The notes under the pieces were generated by a model. The model searched no databases. It was not told the DNA's origin and saw only the letters and a list, made by a program, of their open reading frames with translations. This document shows, piece by piece, positions 22,973 through 64,000 of a DNA stretch of 64,000 nucleotides. Position numbers and translations under genes: made by a program. Every line of letters begins with the position of its first letter. Within the stretch, counting starts at the first letter, position 1. The DNA lies in NCBI GenBank assembly GCA_022843805.1, contig JALHMY010000042.1, positions 1 through 64,000 of the forward strand, written 5' to 3'. Source of the stretch: Fuerstiella sp. (lineage in GTDB: Bacteria; Planctomycetota; Planctomycetia; Planctomycetales; Planctomycetaceae).

Positions 22973-23120
22973 GTATTTGCAGATGCCCGTCTGTGGATTC
23001 TCAGGCTCACGAACGTCCGTCCACCACCCCGTTAACGGCCTGATTCAGTTCAAAAAGTATCGTTCGCGTCGCATTATAGACTCAGCACTGAAGATTTTTA
23101 GGTTCAGCGGCAAATTTGGA

Positions 23121-23197
23121 GGTAGTGGATCCTGCTAAAGATCCCCTGGCTGCAGGACCTTTAGCAAGGTCCACTCCCGGAAATTCAAAGCTTGACA
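23121..23197. repeat. Dispersed palindromic repeat, family A, copy 1
   Basis: This 77-bp element matches the reverse complement of 52883-52959 at 72 of 77 positions. Its core is an inverted repeat: GTAGTGGATCCTGCTAAAGA on the left pairs, with few mismatches, with CTTTAGCAAGGTCCACT on the right around a loop of about 10 nt. It sits in the 309-bp gap between the divergently transcribed uvrA and DUF1080 genes, about 85 bp before the DUF1080 start. No transposase is nearby. It looks like a REP- or MITE-type intergenic element. Confidence 0.9.
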
Positions 23198-23281
23198 CGG
23201 CATCGGTTTCGCCGCCTTTGAGTTCAGAGTAAGATCGGTGTTCAGTAAGCTGATACTCGACCACCCTGCAGGAGCAAAAAC

Positions 23282-24852: not shown

Positions 24853-27800
24853 ATGCCAACAGAAGAAAGTTGTCGCTCTGAACACTCGCAGGACCCGGCG
24901 ACGGATATGCGAGTCCACAAAACGTCTTCCTGGTTCGATCTATTTGATCAGGCCCCTGTTGGGTATTGCACGATCTCCGGTGGTGGAATTATTCAGGAAG
25001 CCAACCTGACCGCCAGTCGTCTGCTTGAAGTTGACCGCGATGAACTCGTTCTCCAGCCAGTCTCACAGTTCGTCGTTCCGGAACATCATAGTCTGTTTTC
25101 AGAACATATCTCTGAACTGAACCGTATGCGTCAGCCATTGTGCTGCGAGCTGCGGATGCGCAAAGGCAGTGGAGAAACATTCTGGGCATCAGTCACCGGA
25201 ACCAGGCCAGACAGCAGTGCTGGTGAAGATGTCATCCTGATCGTGCTCAGCGATGTCACTCATCGAAAGAATCAGGAAGCCGCTCTCTTTGAAAGTAACG
25301 AACGATACCGCCATGCGATTGACGCAACTCGTGAGGGTATCTGGGACTGGAATATCGCATCGGGGCACGTCTACTTTAGCCCTCAATGGGCACGTTTGCT
25401 CGGATACGAACCCGATGAAGTTCCGCAGAGAGTTGAATTTTTCTTTACGGTACTTCACCCCGATGACACACCGCGAGTCACTAAGGTCCTGAACGATCAT
25501 CTGAACGGCCTGACTCCCGTTAAACAGGATGAAGTGCGGCTGCGTATCAGGTCGGGCGAATATCGATGGTTCTTTGACCGTGGGCAGGTTGTTAGCAGGG
25601 ATGCTTCGGGAACTCCGCTGCGCATGGTGGGCACGATTTCCGACATTACCGAACGCAAAAGAGCCGAAGCCGCACTAAAGGAAAGTCAGGCTCGCACAAG
25701 ACTTCTGATCAAGGCAGCAAGCCTTGGGCTCTGGGACTGGGATCTCATCTCCAACGATGTTTACTTTTCTCCGGAATGGAAGCAGCAGCTTGGTTATTCA
25801 GACGAAGAACTTCCCAGCCGATTTTCAGAATGGGCGAATCGTCTTCACCCCGATGATCTGAACTCCACGCTTGCGGCAGTTCGTGATTTTCGCGAAGGTC
25901 GACGACCAGCATACGATGTTGAATTTCGCATGCGTCATCGCGATGGCTCATGGCGATGGATCTTTGCACGTGCCGATGTTCTGCGTGATGGACAGGGACT
26001 TCCGGTTCGTATGATGGGATGTCATTTCGATATCACTGATCGAAAAGAAGCTGAACAGACCAGCAATCGATGGCTGTCCCTGATGCGGGCAACACTCGAA
26101 TCAACAGCAGATGGAATTCTCGTCGTCAACGCAGACGGAAAGTTTGAGATATTCAATCGAGTCTTCCAGGAAATGTGGCGTATTCCCGATGAACTGCTGG
26201 TCGCCGGAATTGATTCGGCTGTTCTCAGCTATGTCTGCACTCAGTTTCGTAATCCGGAACAGTTCCTTGGAAAGGTACAATTCCTTTATACACATCCGAC
26301 TGTGGAGAGTTTTGACACACTGGAACTGAATGACGGCCGAGTGATTGAGCGTTATTCCCGACCGCAGCTGATCGATGGCAGAGTTGTGGGACGAGTCTGG
26401 AGCTTTCGTGATGTGACCGAACGCAAACAGGCGGAGGCCGCTCAGGCTGAAGCTCTTGGCCGCCTCCAAAAGATTGCCAGCCGAATTCCCGGCATGGTCT
26501 ACCAGTTTCGACTGAGAACTGACGGTACCGCCTGCATACCGTACGCCAGCGATGGGATGCGAGAAATTCTTCGAATTAACCCTGAAGCGGTTCGGGAGAA
26601 TCTCACCCTGTCACCCGATATCATTGATCGGGGGTCATTCATCGCATCCATTTTGAAGTCGGCTCACGAACAAACTCCATGGGTACATGAATTTCAAATC
26701 CGCCACAGTGACGGTTCCGTACGCTGGCTTGCCGGAAATTCTCTCCCGGAAAAGGAAGCGGATGGATCCACACTCTGGCACGGTGTAGTCACAGATATCA
26801 CCGCACGAAGGCAGGCCGAGTCGAAACTGAGGGACAGTGAACGCCGGCTGCGAGAAGCCCAGGCCATCTCGCAGATTGGAAATTTTCACTGGGATGCTCA
26901 TAACAATCAGCTGGTGTGGTCCGATGAACTGTTTCGAATTTATGGCCAGGAACCTGCCAGCTTCGAACCCACCTTCGAATGGTATATTTCCGCTGCCCAC
27001 CCCGAGGATCGTTCCGGCCTGTTGAATTCTCTGCAGATGTCAATGACGGAGCTGTCAAGGTTTGATCTCAGGTACCGAATCCTGCTTCAGGATGGCAGCC
27101 AGCGATGGATCCATGCTCGCGGTATCGCTACAGTCGCCCGTGATGGTTGTCTGTCAGGCCTTGAAGTCACGTGTCAGGACATTACCGAACAAAAACGAGC
27201 CGAAGCAACTCGCGCTTCGCTCGAAGCTCAGTTACGCGAGTCGCAGAAAATGGAAGCCATCGGGACGCTTGCCGGTGGTATTGCACATGATTTTAACAAC
27301 ATCCTCGCCACGATTCTGAGCAACGTTGAGAATGCACTACATGAGGAAATCCCAAACCAGGTCGTCCGCAACTGCCTGGTCGATATTTCAACAGCCGGTA
27401 CAAGAGCGAAAAATCTCGTCCAGCAAATTCTGTCATTTAGCCGAAAACAGCCGACGGATCGAAAACAGATACGGCTGCATACCGTCGTTGAAGAATCTGC
27501 TCGCCTGCTCAAAGCCACGCTGCCCTCCAGCCTCGAACTTCAGGTGCACTGCGACCCCTGTGTCCCCGCGGTGATGGCCGATGCAACGCAGATTGAACAG
27601 GTGCTGCTGAACCTCGCCTCAAATTCAATGCAGGCAATGCGAGGTCGTCGCGGTACAATTGGCCTGCATCTCAGCACCATTCTGCTTGATTCCCGCATTA
27701 CGAGCTCGCATAAGTCACTCAGAGCGATTTATCAGCAGAATTCAGGGACGGTCGTGCGATTGTCCGTTAAGGATGACGGTCCCGGGATGGACGCGACAAC

Positions 27801-28422
27801 CATCCAGCGAGTCTTTGAACCCTTCTTCACAACCAAGCCTGTCGGTGAAGGAACAGGTCTGGGCCTCGCTGTCGTTCATGGAATTGTTCAGAGACACGGC
27901 GGAGTGATTACCGTCGAAAGTAAACCGGGAAATGGAGCGGAGTTTGCCGTTTATCTGCCGGTTTCAGAACCGTCCGAACAGATCACCGAAATACAACCAT
28001 CGCAATCTGCAGCACTGGAAGCTGCATCAGCATCTGACACCCCGCATATTCTTTATCTGGATGATGATAAATCCGTACTGCTGCCGGTCAAACATCTTCT
28101 GGAACGTCAGGGATATCGCGTCACCTGCTTCGTCAGCCAGCAGGAAGCCATCGAAGCACTCAGCGCCAATCCGGCGTCCTTTGACGTCTTTGTCACGGAT
28201 TACAATATGCCGGGAATGCACGGCATTGAAGTTGCCCGGGCCGTTCGATCGATTCGCCCCGATCTGCCAGTTGCCATCACGTCGGGATATATTGACGAAG
28301 AACTTCAACAGGGGGCCGAACGGTTCGGAGTCCGCCAGCTGATCGCCAAACCATTCGCTCTAAACGAACTTTATGCCGCCATTCATTCACTGACCGGACA
28401 GGCACAAATCCGGCCTGAATAA
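24853..28422 (+). CDS. Multi-PAS hybrid sensor histidine kinase (1189 aa)
   Basis: No membrane segment is visible, so this is a cytoplasmic sensor. About six PAS domains are stacked: roughly 24-140, 143-275, 275-400, 405-530, 535-660 and 665-790. Several have the PAS-fold phrase LHPDD or HPED and end in DITERK or DITDRK. The kinase core has the phosphorylated His at about 812 in GGIAHDFNNILATILS, then the N box (LNLASNSMQAM) and the G boxes DDGPGMD and GEGTGLGLAVVHG. The C-terminus is a receiver (HILYLDDDKSV, acceptor Asp about 1116 in VTDYNMPGMHG). It lies 14 bp after the DUF1080 gene, but no partner regulator is adjacent. The stop codon falls in the first unit of a 15-bp repeat. Confidence 0.93.
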   Translation: MPTEESCRSEHSQDPATDMRVHKTSSWFDLFDQAPVGYCTISGGGIIQEANLTASRLLEVDRDELVLQPVSQFVVPEHHSLFSEHISELNRMRQPLCCELRMRKGSGETFWASVTGTRPDSSAGEDVILIVLSDVTHRKNQEAALFESNERYRHAIDATREGIWDWNIASGHVYFSPQWARLLGYEPDEVPQRVEFFFTVLHPDDTPRVTKVLNDHLNGLTPVKQDEVRLRIRSGEYRWFFDRGQVVSRDASGTPLRMVGTISDITERKRAEAALKESQARTRLLIKAASLGLWDWDLISNDVYFSPEWKQQLGYSDEELPSRFSEWANRLHPDDLNSTLAAVRDFREGRRPAYDVEFRMRHRDGSWRWIFARADVLRDGQGLPVRMMGCHFDITDRKEAEQTSNRWLSLMRATLESTADGILVVNADGKFEIFNRVFQEMWRIPDELLVAGIDSAVLSYVCTQFRNPEQFLGKVQFLYTHPTVESFDTLELNDGRVIERYSRPQLIDGRVVGRVWSFRDVTERKQAEAAQAEALGRLQKIASRIPGMVYQFRLRTDGTACIPYASDGMREILRINPEAVRENLTLSPDIIDRGSFIASILKSAHEQTPWVHEFQIRHSDGSVRWLAGNSLPEKEADGSTLWHGVVTDITARRQAESKLRDSERRLREAQAISQIGNFHWDAHNNQLVWSDELFRIYGQEPASFEPTFEWYISAAHPEDRSGLLNSLQMSMTELSRFDLRYRILLQDGSQRWIHARGIATVARDGCLSGLEVTCQDITEQKRAEATRASLEAQLRESQKMEAIGTLAGGIAHDFNNILATILSNVENALHEEIPNQVVRNCLVDISTAGTRAKNLVQQILSFSRKQPTDRKQIRLHTVVEESARLLKATLPSSLELQVHCDPCVPAVMADATQIEQVLLNLASNSMQAMRGRRGTIGLHLSTILLDSRITSSHKSLRAIYQQNSGTVVRLSVKDDGPGMDATTIQRVFEPFFTTKPVGEGTGLGLAVVHGIVQRHGGVITVESKPGNGAEFAVYLPVSEPSEQITEIQPSQSAALEAASASDTPHILYLDDDKSVLLPVKHLLERQGYRVTCFVSQQEAIEALSANPASFDVFVTDYNMPGMHGIEVARAVRSIRPDLPVAITSGYIDEELQQGAERFGVRQLIAKPFALNELYAAIHSLTGQAQIRPE

Positions 28423-28476: not shown

Positions 28477-28558
28477 GGACCTGGAAAACAATAAGTGACC
28501 GACATAGTCGCCTTTCGATCCGCGAAAGAGCATCCTTTTGCGGAGCAAAAGGCGACAC
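28477..28558. repeat. Dispersed palindromic repeat, family B, copy 1
   Basis: This 82-bp element equals the reverse complement of 58853-58934 at 77 of 82 positions. Its right part is an inverted repeat, GTCGCCTTTCGATCCGCGAA against TTTTGCGGAGCAAAAGGCGA, around a short AGAGCATCC centre. Immediately after it, 28559-28640 contains two copies of GCGAAGCTCCCGCTGAGCCG (near 28571 and 28611). The whole 267-bp gap between the convergent kinase and methyltransferase genes is thus repeat-derived. Confidence 0.9.
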
Positions 28559-28689
28559 TCCACCGGGAGGGCGAAGCTCCCGCTGAGCCGAGACAAGCAG
28601 AAGGCCCGGCGAAGCTCCCGCTGAGCCGAGAATAGCCCTTCCGGTAAAAACGATTTTGCCGCTCGCCCTGATCAATCGAGATCCAGGGG

Positions 28690-52868: not shown

Positions 52869-52882
52869 GGAAACTACTGCTC

Positions 52883-52986
52883 TGTCAAGCTTTGTATTTC
52901 GGGTAGTGGACCTTGCTAAAGGTCCTGTAGCCAGGGGATCTTTAGCAAGATCCACTACCGCCAACCCGAAATCTTTGTCTTGACGG
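52883..52986. repeat. Dispersed palindromic repeat, family A, copy 2
   Basis: The 77 bp at 52883-52959 match the reverse complement of 23121-23197 with five differences. In this copy the inverted repeat is longer: the outer arms CTGTCAAG and CTTGACGG (to 52986) also pair, and the inner arms are GGGTAGTGGACCTTGCTAAA and the matching GATCTTTAGCAAGATCCACT. The whole unit is about 105 bp. It begins 14 bp after the stop of sat. Confidence 0.9.
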
Positions 52987-58656: not shown

Positions 58657-58852
58657 GACCAACATCTCCCTGAATCACGATGCGGAATGATATGGCTGAC
58701 GAGGAGTCAGCGGTGACTCCTGAAATCGGCAGCCAGCCCGATGAGACAAAGCAGATATGTGGATACAAAACTCCACATATCTCCAAGATAGAATTTATCG
58801 TCCTGAGTGTGGAAAACAAGTATCGGGGGCGTAAGGCGCAGTCAGACAATCA

Positions 58853-58934
58853 GTGTCGCCTTTTGCTCCGCAAAAGGATGCTCTTTCGCGGAGCGAAAGG
58901 CGACGATGGCGCTAACTTATTGTTTTCCAGGTCC
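58853..58934. repeat. Dispersed palindromic repeat, family B, copy 2
   Basis: This 82-bp element matches the reverse complement of 28477-28558 at 77 of 82 positions. Its left part holds the inverted repeat, GTCGCCTTTTGCTCCGCAAA against TTTCGCGGAGCGAAAGGCGA. It fills part of the gap between the second hybrid kinase and the cytochrome gene, both on the minus strand. Confidence 0.9.
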
Positions 58935-58994
58935 TTACGGCACTGAACGACATTTAGTGTAAGGTTCAGGTATCTGCTATACAAAACCAGAACG

Positions 58995-61900
58995 CTATCG
59001 GATTCCATCGATCACAGCGCGAACTTTTCGGGCCAGAACCTGCGGAGTAAACGGTTTTTGCAGAAAAGCGTCTGTCGTATCAGTCAGACCGTGCAATACA
59101 ACTGCGTCGTCTGTGTGACCACTGATATACAGCACTCTCATGGCGGGATGATGCTGTCGAAGTGTTTCGACAAGCTGACGGCCACCCATTTCGGGCATCA
59201 CAACATCGGTCACCAGCAGGTCGACAGTTTTGGAAAATCTGTTCATCATTTCGATGGCTGCTGATGCGCGATCTGCTTCAACAACTTTGAACCCATGCGC
59301 TTCGAGAGCAATCCTGGCGATTTTTCTTACATTATCTTCATCCTCCACGAGCAGAATGGTTTCAGTCCCATTGCTGCCGACCGGGCGATTTCGATGGTGC
59401 TTCACTTCGGATAATGCTCGAACGGCGGGAAGCATGATACGAAATTCGGTTCCGGATCCCGCTGTGCTTTCGACGTCGATGTACCCGCCGCATTGCTGAA
59501 CGATTCCATGAACAACGGACAGGCCGAGACCAGTGCCTTTTCCAATTCCCTTGGTGGTGAAGAAGGGTTCAAAGATTTTGCTCTTCACTTCTTCGGACAT
59601 TCCATGACCGGTATCTGCCACGATGAGTTGTGCGTAAAGTCCGGACTTTCGGTTGGTGTAGCCGATGCCATCCGCGGTATCCACTCGAAGGCTGTGTGTT
59701 TCGATCGTAAGTCGTCCGCCTACCGGCATCGCGTCGCGCGCATTAACTGCAAGGTTCATGATTACCTGTTCCAGCTGTCCGGGATCAGCCGAAATCTTTT
59801 CAAGGTCGGGATCCTGGTTCACGACAAGAATGATATCTTCGCCGATCAGACGTCGGAGCATGCGGGCTGTCGATTCAACAACGACATTCAGATCCATCGT
59901 GCGAGGTTCGATAATCGCGTTGCGGCTAAACGCCAGGAGTTGTGAAGTCAGACCTGCCGCTCGCTCACCGGCATCCTTAATCGCCAGCAGCTGCTCGCGC
60001 CGAGCATCCATGCCCGTCAGCTGAGTGAGAAGCACTTCCGTATAACCGTTTATCACTGTAAGCAGGTTGTTAAAGTCGTGAGCAACACCGCCTGCGAGTC
60101 TGCCAACTGCTTCCATTTTCTGTGCCTGGCGAAACTGTTCCTCCAGTCGTTTGACTTCTGTGACATCCCTTGTGAAGCAGCGAATACTGAGCAGCTGACC
60201 GGCTTCCCAGCGAACACTGTAGTCGATCAGCACATCACGAACAGAACCATCACGGCAAACCAGCCTGGCGGCGTACGACTCAACAGTCTCTTTCGAGTGC
60301 AGCCTCCGCAAAATATCATCTGCCACAGCTCGACATTCGTAAAATTCGGAGATATTCCGGCCTGTATACTCTTCGCTGTGATAGCCGAGGAGACTCAGTA
60401 CCGCCGGATTCGCGCGCAGGATGGTGCCATCAGCGGCCAGCAAATGAATTCCGACAGTGGCATTCTCAAAAAAGTCAGCAAACTCCTGCTCGCTTGCTCG
60501 TACGGCTTCTTCGGCTCGTTTCCATTCGGTAATTTCGGTCAGGACACCGCATATTGCGTATGGGAGACCATCTGTCGACAACAGCGGAAAGAGAATGGAA
60601 AGAAATATGCATTCCTGTCCACTGAAGAGTTTGATTTTCTCTTCGAGCTGCAACGGTTGCAGCGTCTCAAAGACCAGTCGATCATTAGCCTCGATTCTTT
60701 CGGCTGTCTCGCGGGGAAACACATCGCGAGCCGTCCTGCCATGCCATTCCTGCTGTGGAATCTGCATTCGCAGGGCACCGTGGCGGTTCACGAACAAGTA
60801 GCGGCCGTCGAGGTTTTTCAGAAAGATGATGGAAGGGGAGAAGTCCAGAACATTTCGAAATCGTTCCTCACTTTCTCGAAGCGCCAGTTCAAAGCGTTTG
60901 CGGTCGGTAATATCCTGAGCAATTCCGCAAATGGCATACGGCTGCCCATTCGTTCGGAAGAGCAGAAACTGCACGGTAAGGCAGGTAATTTCCGGACCGT
61001 TATCGAAAGTCGCTGTTTCTTCGACCTGCTGAGGTCCTCCGCCGAGTATCAGTCGGCGGTCGTTTTCACTGAACATCTCCGCGACAGCGGGAGGCAGCAG
61101 TTCGTCTGCCGTTTTTCCGATCCACTCTGACTGAGGAATTCCAAACAGTTCAGCCACACGTCGGTTGACGAAAAGGTAACGTCCTTCAAGGTCCTTCAGG
61201 TAAATAACCGCAGGGGAGAAGTCCAGTACGCTGCGGAATCGCTGCTCACTTTCCTGAAGCGCCTGTTCGGCCTGTTTCCTCGCTGTTATATCGTGGACGG
61301 AACCGACAAGATGAGTACAGCGACCATCATCTGACATGACGGGTGCAATGCAAACGTCTCCAACCACAACTCCGGCCGGATAAATGGCGGTCTCTTCCCA
61401 GCGAACAATCCGATTTTCTGTGATCGCCTGCTGACAATGATTCCGTACCAGTGAAAGTGATGGTTCGGGAATCACATCCTCAATGCGAAGACCAGAGATC
61501 GTTTCGGCTGCAAGGCCAGTCCGGTTAACAAACGCAGGATTGACGGACTGAAACCGAAGTCCGCCATCTGTGTCGAGCTTTATCAGGAACAGAATATCGG
61601 CGGTCGTCTGATAGATCAGTGACAGCTGAAGGTGCGTTTCCCGCAGTCGTTCTTCCGCCTGCCTGCGATCCGTTATATCAAGGCATGTACCCACAAGACG
61701 CACCGGATTTCCGCTGTTGTCGACAATGACTTGTCCCTGACTTTCAAGCACGCGGATCGTTCCATCGCGACGAACGATCCGTTCTTCCATTCTGAAGCCT
61801 GATTTATCCCGGCACGCATCAGCAATCTTAGTCTGAACCCGCTCCTGGTCTTCGGGATGAATATGACTGAGAAAGCCGTCCAGAGTCATTTCCCTTTCCT

Positions 61901-62942
61901 GGGGAGCATAGCCATAGATGCGATACAATTCGTCGGACCATGACAGTCGACCGGTCACCAGACTCAGTTCGAAAGACCCAAGGTGCGCCAGTGTCTGGCC
62001 GCTTTCCAGCAGAATAGTCTGTCGCCGGAGGCTGTCCTGAGCATCCCATCGATCAGAGATATTCAGCACCGTTGCTATTCCGAGTCCCTTCAGTCCGTTA
62101 CCGGCAGGGCGGAGCCGAACTTCGATCGGGTAAGTCGTCCCATCTCTTCTCTGGCGTCCTGATTCGAAGGTCAGCTGTTCTCCGTGCTGCAGACGCATCA
62201 GCACTGATGCCAGGGCTTCTTTACTGATGTCAGGGCATAAATCAGTAAGGCTCCTTCCGATCAATTCTTCCCGCGTATACTCCAGTTGCCGACAAGCCTC
62301 TTCATTAACGTCAGTGATCCTGCCTGTATGATCGTGCAGAAACAATGCGTCGGAAGCCGAGTTGACAAGCTGTCGAAGGCGAGCTTCGTTTTGACGCAGG
62401 CTGCGAAGCAGGATTTCATGTTCGATTACGATGGCTGCCAGATATTCGACGCAGGCCATCTGTGAAGGAAGCGGAGATTCCGACGTCACCGCCTCAGCAG
62501 TGAATACAACCAGACTACCGAGCACAGGTGCATCAACAGTTTTTCGTGAACAGATACTGACTGTCCAGCATTCAGAAAGACCGGCATTCGCAGCGGCGCT
62601 GTTAACGAGCCGCCATTCGGCGGACGAATGCTCTGCAGACCAGAGACCATCAGCAGTAAAGACGGCCAGTGGGCTGCGGATGACCGGAAACGCAGCAGAA
62701 CCAAGAGCGGCAACGGGCCTCAGCAATTCCAAAGAAGTTTGTGGTCCTGCAATGATCAGTGGCTGATCAGAGTTCAGATCATTCACAATACAGATGGCGG
62801 ATCTCTGGCGCTGCGAATCTTTAATTATCGCCATGAGTTCGAAAAGTACGTCACTGGCGGGAGTTTCCCGGGCAATATGCTCAAGAATTCCTGTCAATAC
62901 TTCACTGTTCAGTAAAGTGGCGTCCGGCGAATCGGCTCTCAT
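58995..62942 (-). CDS. Multi-PAS hybrid sensor histidine kinase (1315 aa)
   Basis: The first 190 residues look like a GAF sensory domain (LLNSEVLTGILEHIARETPA). Six PAS domains follow, including NSASDALFLHDHTGRITDVN, then HLGSFELSLVTGRLSWSDEL and YQTTADILFLIKLDTDGGLR, and two near-copies VLDFSPAVIYLKDLEGRYLF and VLDFSPSIIFLKNLDGRYLF. The kinase core has GRLAGGVAHDFNNLLTVING, the N box VIMNLAVNARDAM and G boxes DTGHGMS and GKGTGLGLSVVHG. A receiver ends the protein (ETILLVEDEDNVRKIARIAL; Asp in LLVTDVVMPEMGG). No membrane helix. The frame is open to 63152, but I chose the ATG at 62942 because the preceding stretch overlaps the ATPase gene and reads as non-protein. Confidence 0.9.
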   Translation of the reverse strand: MRADSPDATLLNSEVLTGILEHIARETPASDVLFELMAIIKDSQRQRSAICIVNDLNSDQPLIIAGPQTSLELLRPVAALGSAAFPVIRSPLAVFTADGLWSAEHSSAEWRLVNSAAANAGLSECWTVSICSRKTVDAPVLGSLVVFTAEAVTSESPLPSQMACVEYLAAIVIEHEILLRSLRQNEARLRQLVNSASDALFLHDHTGRITDVNEEACRQLEYTREELIGRSLTDLCPDISKEALASVLMRLQHGEQLTFESGRQRRDGTTYPIEVRLRPAGNGLKGLGIATVLNISDRWDAQDSLRRQTILLESGQTLAHLGSFELSLVTGRLSWSDELYRIYGYAPQEREMTLDGFLSHIHPEDQERVQTKIADACRDKSGFRMEERIVRRDGTIRVLESQGQVIVDNSGNPVRLVGTCLDITDRRQAEERLRETHLQLSLIYQTTADILFLIKLDTDGGLRFQSVNPAFVNRTGLAAETISGLRIEDVIPEPSLSLVRNHCQQAITENRIVRWEETAIYPAGVVVGDVCIAPVMSDDGRCTHLVGSVHDITARKQAEQALQESEQRFRSVLDFSPAVIYLKDLEGRYLFVNRRVAELFGIPQSEWIGKTADELLPPAVAEMFSENDRRLILGGGPQQVEETATFDNGPEITCLTVQFLLFRTNGQPYAICGIAQDITDRKRFELALRESEERFRNVLDFSPSIIFLKNLDGRYLFVNRHGALRMQIPQQEWHGRTARDVFPRETAERIEANDRLVFETLQPLQLEEKIKLFSGQECIFLSILFPLLSTDGLPYAICGVLTEITEWKRAEEAVRASEQEFADFFENATVGIHLLAADGTILRANPAVLSLLGYHSEEYTGRNISEFYECRAVADDILRRLHSKETVESYAARLVCRDGSVRDVLIDYSVRWEAGQLLSIRCFTRDVTEVKRLEEQFRQAQKMEAVGRLAGGVAHDFNNLLTVINGYTEVLLTQLTGMDARREQLLAIKDAGERAAGLTSQLLAFSRNAIIEPRTMDLNVVVESTARMLRRLIGEDIILVVNQDPDLEKISADPGQLEQVIMNLAVNARDAMPVGGRLTIETHSLRVDTADGIGYTNRKSGLYAQLIVADTGHGMSEEVKSKIFEPFFTTKGIGKGTGLGLSVVHGIVQQCGGYIDVESTAGSGTEFRIMLPAVRALSEVKHHRNRPVGSNGTETILLVEDEDNVRKIARIALEAHGFKVVEADRASAAIEMMNRFSKTVDLLVTDVVMPEMGGRQLVETLRQHHPAMRVLYISGHTDDAVVLHGLTDTTDAFLQKPFTPQVLARKVRAVIDGIR

Positions 62943-63111
62943 GACCAGTGTCTGTCTTCTAAGAGGAAGAAAACGCAATTGTCGTGAGAGGGTACCAAAC
63001 GGCAGCAAATCTGTCTTCGGCACTCCGTGCTGTGGCGGGCGCTCGAAAAACAGGCAGATTCCGCGATCTCTGTTGCTGGTGCGTGCACGCCGATATGAAC
63101 GACGTGTATGC

Positions 63112-64000
63112 TCAGGACATGGCAGAGAAGTAATTTTCCACAGCCGCATCAAACGCTGCGTTGCTCAGCTGCAGCGGCTGTGCATGATACTGGCAATAGT
63201 TCTTTACCTGCAACAGCAGGTCGCGCGGCTGACAGAGTCGGAAGGGGCGGACACCTTCATAATGATTTGTTACCAGGTAGTCGATCACATCCGGCATATA
63301 TTCGAATCCCATGACTCCGCACATGATCCTGCAGAGTTCCCGAAATTCTTCTTCCGAAGGATCCGGGACCTCGATCTTATAGGGAATACGGCGAAGAAAC
63401 GCACCGTCCACCAGATCTTTGGGTTCCAGGTTGGTGGAGAATACGATCAGCTGGTCAAAAGGAACCTGTATTTTCTTACCACTGGGCATGTTCAGAAAGT
63501 CATACCGTTTTTCGAGCGGCACGATCCATCGATTCAGCAGCATATCGACCGGCATCTTCTGACGACCAAAGTCGTCGATAACGAGAGTGCCGCAATTGCT
63601 CTTCACCTGCAGCGGAGATTCGCAGATCTTGGACTGAGGATTCTGGCTGACTTCCAGTTCGTCCATAGTGAGTTCACCCCCGGCAATGATCGTCGGGCGT
63701 TTGATCTGAATCCAGCGACGATCAATATCGAGTGAGTCCAGTAGTCCGCTGTTTGTCGACTGATCCTCAACCTCTTCATGAATTCCCGGGTCAAAGATTC
63801 GCATGATTTCACCCTCAATGCAGATTGCCCGAGGGATCCACACGGTTGACCCGAACGCAGCTGTTACTCGTTCAGCGATACTGGTTTTGCCGTTTCCAGG
63901 CTCACCGAAAAGAAACATTCCGCGTCCGGAATTGATGGCAGGGCCCAGCCGATTCATCATCGCCTGATTGATAATCAGCCCTTTAAAGGCTCGTTGAAGG
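63112..64000 (-). CDS. AAA-type ATPase, MoxR/RavA-like (5' end outside the window)
   Basis: The frame is open to the right edge. The visible part begins [20 protein letters not shown]. Walker A is [20 protein letters not shown], the Walker B-like strand is [20 protein letters not shown] and the sensor-1 strand is [20 protein letters not shown], followed by the Arg finger in [10 protein letters not shown]. The C-terminal lid is helical ([20 protein letters not shown]). Walker B here is IDDFGR rather than the usual DE, but this ATPase type is known in planctomycetes. Its partner protein and function are not shown. The internal ATG at 63960 is probably not the true start. Confidence 0.85.

Follow-up and report, generated by a model that had tools for sequence, protein, structure and literature searches.

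Results

Two copies of family B beside kinase genes

The window, meaning the whole 64,000-nucleotide stretch of Fuerstiella sp. DNA analysed here, contains two copies of a palindromic repeat (family B), each close to a gene for a multi-PAS hybrid histidine kinase. The segments 28477-28558 and 58853-58934, paired in an earlier note made from the window alone, agree in inverse orientation at 77 of 82 bases; a repeat search of the window gave an 83-nt inverted pair with 94% complementarity, and the GC-rich inverted repeat centred on AGAGCATCC is present as that note had described. The 82 bp are not the repeat unit, which is 100 bp long (see below). A full-length copy occupies 58835-58934 and is flanked by triplets that disagree (TAA and TTA), and the copy at 28477 ends after 28559, lacks the right terminal inverted repeat (TIR) and is not preceded by TWA on its left. 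Neither copy in the window is bordered by an intact, matching target duplication. The features are as follows.

58835..58934, minus strand: full 100-bp type-1 element; the consensus orientation, with the GGACCTGG end first, lies on the minus strand (genome search and alignment)
58832..58834, no strand: flanking triplet TAA, unlike the TTA opposite; one of the 3 discordant cases among the 47 copies with TWA on both sides
58935..58937, no strand: flanking triplet TTA
58835..58854, plus strand: TIR of the GGCGCTGT type, reading GGCGCAGTCAGACAATCAGT here (from the consensus)
58855..58904, no strand: core (REPIN), an inverted pair of GTCG-tagged TCC-loop hairpins; half-site matches at 58856-58876 (plus) and 58883-58903 (minus)
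58905..58914, no strand: 10-bp spacer of the longer arm
58915..58934, minus strand: TIR, GGACCTGGAAAACAATAAGT (TIR pattern match)
28477..28559, plus strand: second copy, truncated, right TIR missing; left TIR 28477-28496, spacer 28497-28506, core 28507-28556
24853..28422, plus strand: multi-PAS hybrid histidine kinase beside the truncated copy (context, outside the element)
58995..63152, minus strand: multi-PAS hybrid histidine kinase beside the full copy (context, outside the element)

A tRNA was the sole match in the window to Rfam at gathering scores. Adjoining the truncated copy, an exact 24-base duplicate, GGCGAAGCTCCCGCTGAGCCGAGA, is present at 28570 and 28608 (window 28570-28631).

The core is an inverted pair of tagged hairpins

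Each half of the core consists of a GTCG tag, a stem of 7-8 bp and a TCC loop, and the two halves are inverted. Across 71 copies, Watson-Crick pairs filled 98.4% and 97.0% of cells in the two local stems and 88.3% in the long-range pairing, which holds one near-fixed C.A and one near-fixed G.T mismatch. In a DNA energy model, single B copies fold as one long hairpin (z of -4.8 to -7.0). Since single copies fold in this way and the local stems are paired as well, both shapes are possible. RNA folds of one copy were strong on its two strands (z of -4.9 and -5.8). One terminator-like match fell on the core; the 401-bp stretch held 2 such matches, compared with 0.5 in shuffles.

The hairpins are better conserved than the ends, in a sample that is biased towards conserved cores since most loci were obtained via the core or the whole element. 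When places were anchored on the left TIR (76 places, 66 of them full and ungapped), the tagged hairpins showed 98.8% and 97.7% identity to the consensus and the far TIR 92.7%; anchoring on the right TIR (70 places, 60 full) gave 97.9% and 98.9% for the hairpins and 95.3% for the far TIR.

Short tagged hairpins, arranged as inverse pairs and present in many copies, place the core with REPs and REPINs. Its tag is GTCG and not the GTAG (or GT[AG]G) of canonical REPs. Degenerate GTMG tags are allowed in some REP families according to passages of PMC3733652, so the GTCG tag lowers membership in the canonical GTAG group and not in REPs at large. The CGTC REPs have a terminal CGTC, loops of 4-5 and stems of 8-9 bp whose first pairs are A/T; the core differs from them in both tag and loop (GTCG and TCC). 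At one further locus of the genome of origin (L106, about 2867-2966), the REP loop of a type-1 copy is split by another kind of element, which has GGGACGTCG ends.

Type 1 is a 100-bp element with a TWA target duplication

The genome search proposed in the earlier note revealed many copies, and family B is indeed dispersed. In the genome of origin (9.2 Mb in 172 contigs), a query of 126 bp around the site gave at least 42 matches, with E values of 1e-37 or better for 40 of them (of 158 candidates, 40 were scored). A half-core pattern allowing up to 3 mismatches occurred 142 times in forward and 137 times in reverse orientation, and its reversed control twice and not at all; the genome carries about 140 family B cores (279 half-sites). 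The TIR pattern, with up to 1 mismatch, matched at 64 and 67 places on the two strands, and its control at 0 and 0.

The 29 search loci, 74 stretches around further matches listed and the window together yielded 96 distinct type-1 copies, of which 79 retain both ends, each with 7 mismatches at most. Exactly 100 bp was the length of 71 of these 79. The consensus comprises the left TIR GGACCTGGAAAACAATAAGT, the 10-bp spacer, the 50-bp core and the right end ACTTATTGTCTGACAGCGCC, with TIRs of 20 bp. The element is bordered by a 3-bp target duplication that reads TAA or TTA (TWA): among the 79 copies the flanking triplets were TAA/TAA in 26, TTA/TTA in 18 and TAA/TTA in 3, with at least one non-TWA triplet in 32. 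Thus 44 of the 47 copies with TWA on both sides match. Identical triplets flanked 44 of the 79 copies, compared with a mean of 22.4 and a maximum of 39 in shuffles, and among duplication lengths of 2 to 9 checked in these copies, identity was found at no length other than 3.

TIRs, a defined length, a target duplication and the absence of coding sequence make type 1 a MITE; it is non-coding because 100 bp is too short for a transposase. No transposase with type-1 ends was found among 4 PF07592 and 9 PF01609 matches, and a type-1 parent among them was rejected as no locus had matching ends. The ends may belong to an IS5/IS1031-like or other DDE family with 3-bp duplications, as the duplication length would suggest.

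A second family joins the core to IS4-type ends

The same genome holds 25 copies of a type-2 family, 22 of them 116 bp long, in which the same kind of core lies between CCAATGGCGTGGACTTA ends. A 9-bp duplication is identical in 10 of the 25 and has at most one mismatch in 18 of the 25 (shuffle mean 0.9, maximum 6). A 1.6-kb insertion sequence with type-2 ends (L266) encodes a 499-residue IS4-family transposase (NF033592, 170 bits, cut-off 115); no 9-bp duplication was seen by eye in its flanks. One type-2 arm, TTAAGCATCGTGCGGATTTCCATA, resembles an arm of the element of CSSed162cmB_366, and from this likeness we infer that type 2 may have arisen when a CSSed162cmB_366-like element met an IS4 end at its TTAAGC. 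Many type-2 copies, for example those at L057, L059, L068, L081 and L092, seemingly lie inside another GC-rich repeat (CGACCGGC... and similar sequences), which is perhaps a preferred type-2 target.

The core recurs in different shells in other planctomycetes

A scan of genome contigs with the core pattern returned at least 105 stretches from at least 23 assemblies, all planctomycetes by title, and 80 of the stretches were taken as loci. The loci from named genomes contained 82 cores, 80 of them with enough flank. In 30 of 160 arms, TWA lay outside the tag at a distance of exactly 20 bp, compared with a mean of 3.1 arms per position; with R. obstinata and CSSed162cmB_366 left aside, the count was 10 of 118 arms against 2.0. 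A second TWA peak, of 31 arms at distance 2, is a run of conserved bases beside the tag. When distances of 20, 28 and 30 were tested, the triplets on the two sides agreed at 6 of 80 cores, compared with 107 of 5768 mismatched pairs. A copy-by-copy TIR test was weak in the named genomes: 13 of 80 exceeded the 99% control, and REP arrays were among these 13. The analysis therefore turned to recurrence and the fixed distance.

The element ends vary by genome, being GGAACGAGCG in R. obstinata, GCATCGTGCGG in CSSed162cmB_366, GGATCGGCGA in the LacPavin MAG 64_13 and GGACTGG in casp150-mb.69. The 13-base end of R. obstinata occurred at 48 and 44 places in that genome (control 2 and 3); among the matches listed, 15 end pairs face each other within about 105 bp, 14 of them with matching triplets. 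By eye, cores without such ends are found in arms of relatives (L031-L040) and at the RAYT loci described below, and many cores elsewhere lack them too; 19 further core pairs were also recorded.

Other arrangements were also seen around these cores. At nine R. obstinata contig ends (L301-L304, L306 and L308-L311), ends similar to GGGACGTCG follow part of the core, which suggests that the GGGACGTCG-ended element is an insertion sequence targeting this REP. A supposed R. obstinata parent, in which a TIR was followed by part of the core at contig ends, was rejected; by eye it is another element interrupting the REP loop. Single GTCG REPs that form small arrays and have no TIRs lie beside the cores in Ca. 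Laterigemmans baculatus (L176, L191 and L204) and Roseimaritima sediminicola (L168).

In a survey of the class, 30 of 297 genomes (genome of origin included) matched at 1e-6, with at most 3 candidates scored per genome, and these belong to five families. Among relatives, again with the genome of origin included, 7 of 59 matched, and the three belonging to the same genus gave no match.

A RAYT gene lies between cores of this type in two genomes

A profile of the RAYT, the enzyme that accompanies REPs, was built for this work and scanned against 20 regions around cores elsewhere in the class, the 80 named-genome loci and 80 loci of the genome of origin, and gave 7 matches in these 180 loci. At two of the 20 regions, L322 and L327 from two other genomes of the class, the RAYT gene is flanked on either side by REPINs of this type. 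One REPIN is overlapped by the frames when these are read from stop to stop, but the genes themselves are clear of the REPINs if the methionine chosen after it is the start. The L322 and L327 proteins scored 2.8e-13 and 6.5e-12 (50 and 45.6 bits, cut-off 80) with the NCBI model REP_Tyr_transpos, and 25.4 and 17.3 bits (cut-off 23) with Pfam Y1_Tnp; both contain PNHVHLL, which we take to be the HUH motif. A third locus, L334, encodes a RAYT of the same clade whose nearest REP is 5.9 kb away.

The genome of origin looks different. Its four loci with RAYT-profile matches held no such REP within their stretches, and no RAYT of the L322/L327 clade was found there, the closest of the frames fetched being 31% identical over 111 residues. 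A PF01797 search of this genome may miss the clade because L327 scores below the cut-off. Of the loci with RAYT-type genes, the 12 from this genome had no B core nearby, and among the 28 from six relatives a core was seen just at L248 and L252, at a distance; at L248 (relative G035), a GTCG-tagged TCC-loop hairpin pair lies about 0.5 kb from a RAYT gene. The RAYT genes of the genome itself (L045 and L049) and of relatives (L253 and L257) have GTAG-tagged TCC-loop hairpins within about 1 kb. The REP nature of the core is well supported.

Copies gather at gene 3' ends, not at kinase genes

Both window copies adjoin the 3' ends of multi-PAS hybrid kinase genes (PAS, HisKA, HATPase and receiver domains), at distances of 54 and 60 bp, as the earlier note had observed. 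The association that it raised does not extend further: only 2 of the 96 type-1 copies, the window's own, lie within 1.5 kb of such a kinase, and the placement beside two sensor kinase genes looks like chance. A preference for the 3' ends of genes, a question that the note had put, is real. With a simple open-frame caller, 26 of the 96 copies overlap a frame (many of these frames may be spurious) and 70 are intergenic; the latter fell into 29 convergent, 38 tandem and 3 divergent gaps, whereas the numbers for control gaps were 23, 73 and 35. The median distance to the nearest 3' end was 17 bp, and in 56 of 67 cases this end lay within 100 bp. Of 62 testable copies, 11 coincided with the TAA stop of a frame of at least 150 codons, compared with 152 among 4858 TAAs; for frames of at least 100 codons, the figures were 12 of 62 and 311 of 4858. 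The location of the copies is accounted for in part by the TAA target.

Discussion

REPINs and MITEs are treated as separate kinds of small repeat with separate enzymes. Family B resembles both. Inverted, short, tagged and conserved hairpins around a variable middle, many copies and a position near 3' ends are shared with REPINs and REP-RAYT systems as portrayed in parts of PMC2817692, PMC3116915 and PMC8266576, and the core type shares with them the RAYT gene between pairs in two genomes. The tag in those portrayals is GTAG or GTGG, whereas it is GTCG in family B; also unlike REP-RAYT systems, the family B pair lies inside TIRs with a target duplication, and no cognate RAYT was seen in its own genome. 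GTAG REPs are recorded for Planctomycetes including R. baltica, and REPs are said to be mostly downstream of genes, in excerpts of PMC3733652. With bacterial MITEs such as Correia/NEMIS, RUP and Nezha (sections of PMC3733652 and PMC2817692), family B shares a length of about 100 bp, TIRs, a short target duplication and the lack of coding sequence; unlike in those MITEs, TIRs of different families enclose a common REPIN core, which is better conserved than they are. Insertion sequences that target REPs (PMC1525189, in part) are likewise DDE-type mobile DNA meeting REPs, but there the insertion sequence is inside the REP and here the REP pair is inside the TIRs; L106 and the R. obstinata contig ends may be of the former kind too. 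A literature search of limited coverage, which included passages of PMC6006769, found no account of MITEs of TWA or IS4 type that enclose REPINs, and three core strings were absent from published text, a search that a consensus printed only in a figure would escape.

We consider it likely that family B is a non-autonomous DNA transposon (MITE) with a REPIN interior, and the mobile unit is well supported. In another arrangement, ordinary RAYT-moved REPINs would have inserted into longer palindromes that already existed, the TIRs being target and outside the mobile unit. REP dimers enclosed by longer palindromes are described from A. variabilis, H. neapolitanus and T. roseum in portions of PMC3733652; those of the first two occupy the centre of a longer inverted repeat, as in family B. 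The bare core elsewhere fits such a history. That source treats the longer palindrome as the target, and its portions used here report no target duplication, RAYT link or change of shell for such dimers. Palindromes without a REP were not found in A. variabilis or H. neapolitanus in the same portions, nor among the family B loci examined: at 76 left-TIR-anchored places, from fetched loci mostly found via the core, a good far TIR was never combined with a bad core. Two facts speak against insertion into a palindrome: the 100-bp unit is repeated in its entirety, bordered by matching triplets, at sites that are unrelated, and IS200/IS605-type elements lack TIRs and larger target duplications (PMC2817692, in part). 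We regard this arrangement as unlikely. Slightly less likely still is a host regulatory element at gene ends, such as an RNA 3'-end hairpin, a terminator or an mRNA stabiliser, with the palindrome kept by selection on RNA. The 3'-end location, the strong RNA folds of the one copy and the greater conservation of hairpins than ends would fit this. The TIRs and target duplications point instead to a mobile unit, the lack of a match in the three same-genus genomes and the patchy spread in the class argue against a host element, and the TAA target partly explains the location; a host function may have been acquired after insertion.

For the two window copies, it might be supposed that both were carried along when a kinase gene was duplicated. 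Stretches of the kinase DNA are 73% similar, and both copies face their kinase gene with the same end and from about the same distance. Set against this, the elements are 94% alike, while an alignment of the C-terminal parts of the kinases has identical residues at 138 of its 380 positions. The alignment of the spacers that separate each gene from its element was equalled or bettered by 330 of 500 shuffles, and the other 94 of the 96 copies have no such kinase nearby. Joint duplication is hardly credible and was rejected. The neighbours of two copies are poor ground for inferring function.

A MITE with a REPIN interior would have its type-1 ends moved in trans by a DDE-type transposase targeting TWA. 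The core would first have been copied as single-stranded hairpins by a RAYT and now be a passenger. Copies would then collect at gene 3' ends because TWA targets are often TAA stop codons and selection would remove insertions into promoters and genes. Judged from sequence, present mobility of the type-1 element and a host function are candidates only. A further and doubtful reading is that one element serves two transposition systems: a planctomycete REPIN may have repeatedly acquired DDE-type ends at a fixed distance of 20 bp, the near-invariant hairpins being a working part of the transposon while the ends change between species. If so, the hairpins could be, for example, a cruciform hinge joining the ends of the 100-bp element, or an entry site for a RAYT.

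One hairpin pair occurs bare, beside a RAYT gene, within TWA-type shells that vary in their ends, and within a shell of IS4 type. This natural series allows one to ask how miniature transposons form, and it also bears on how REP hairpins are conserved where a cognate RAYT is not seen and on how repeats reach gene 3' ends.

Other repeats in the window

Family B is, as first described, a second palindromic element with no sequence relation to family A, though the two have the same build. The family A copies (window 23116-23210 and 52870-52964) appear by eye to be an inverted pair of tagged hairpins, REPIN-like and with the usual tag; their hairpins read, by eye, as tag GTAG, stem GGATCTT or GGACCTT and loop GCTA. 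Positions 1-668 of the window hold a direct repeat of about 298 nt in three copies with a spacing of 185, which are 62-95% alike.
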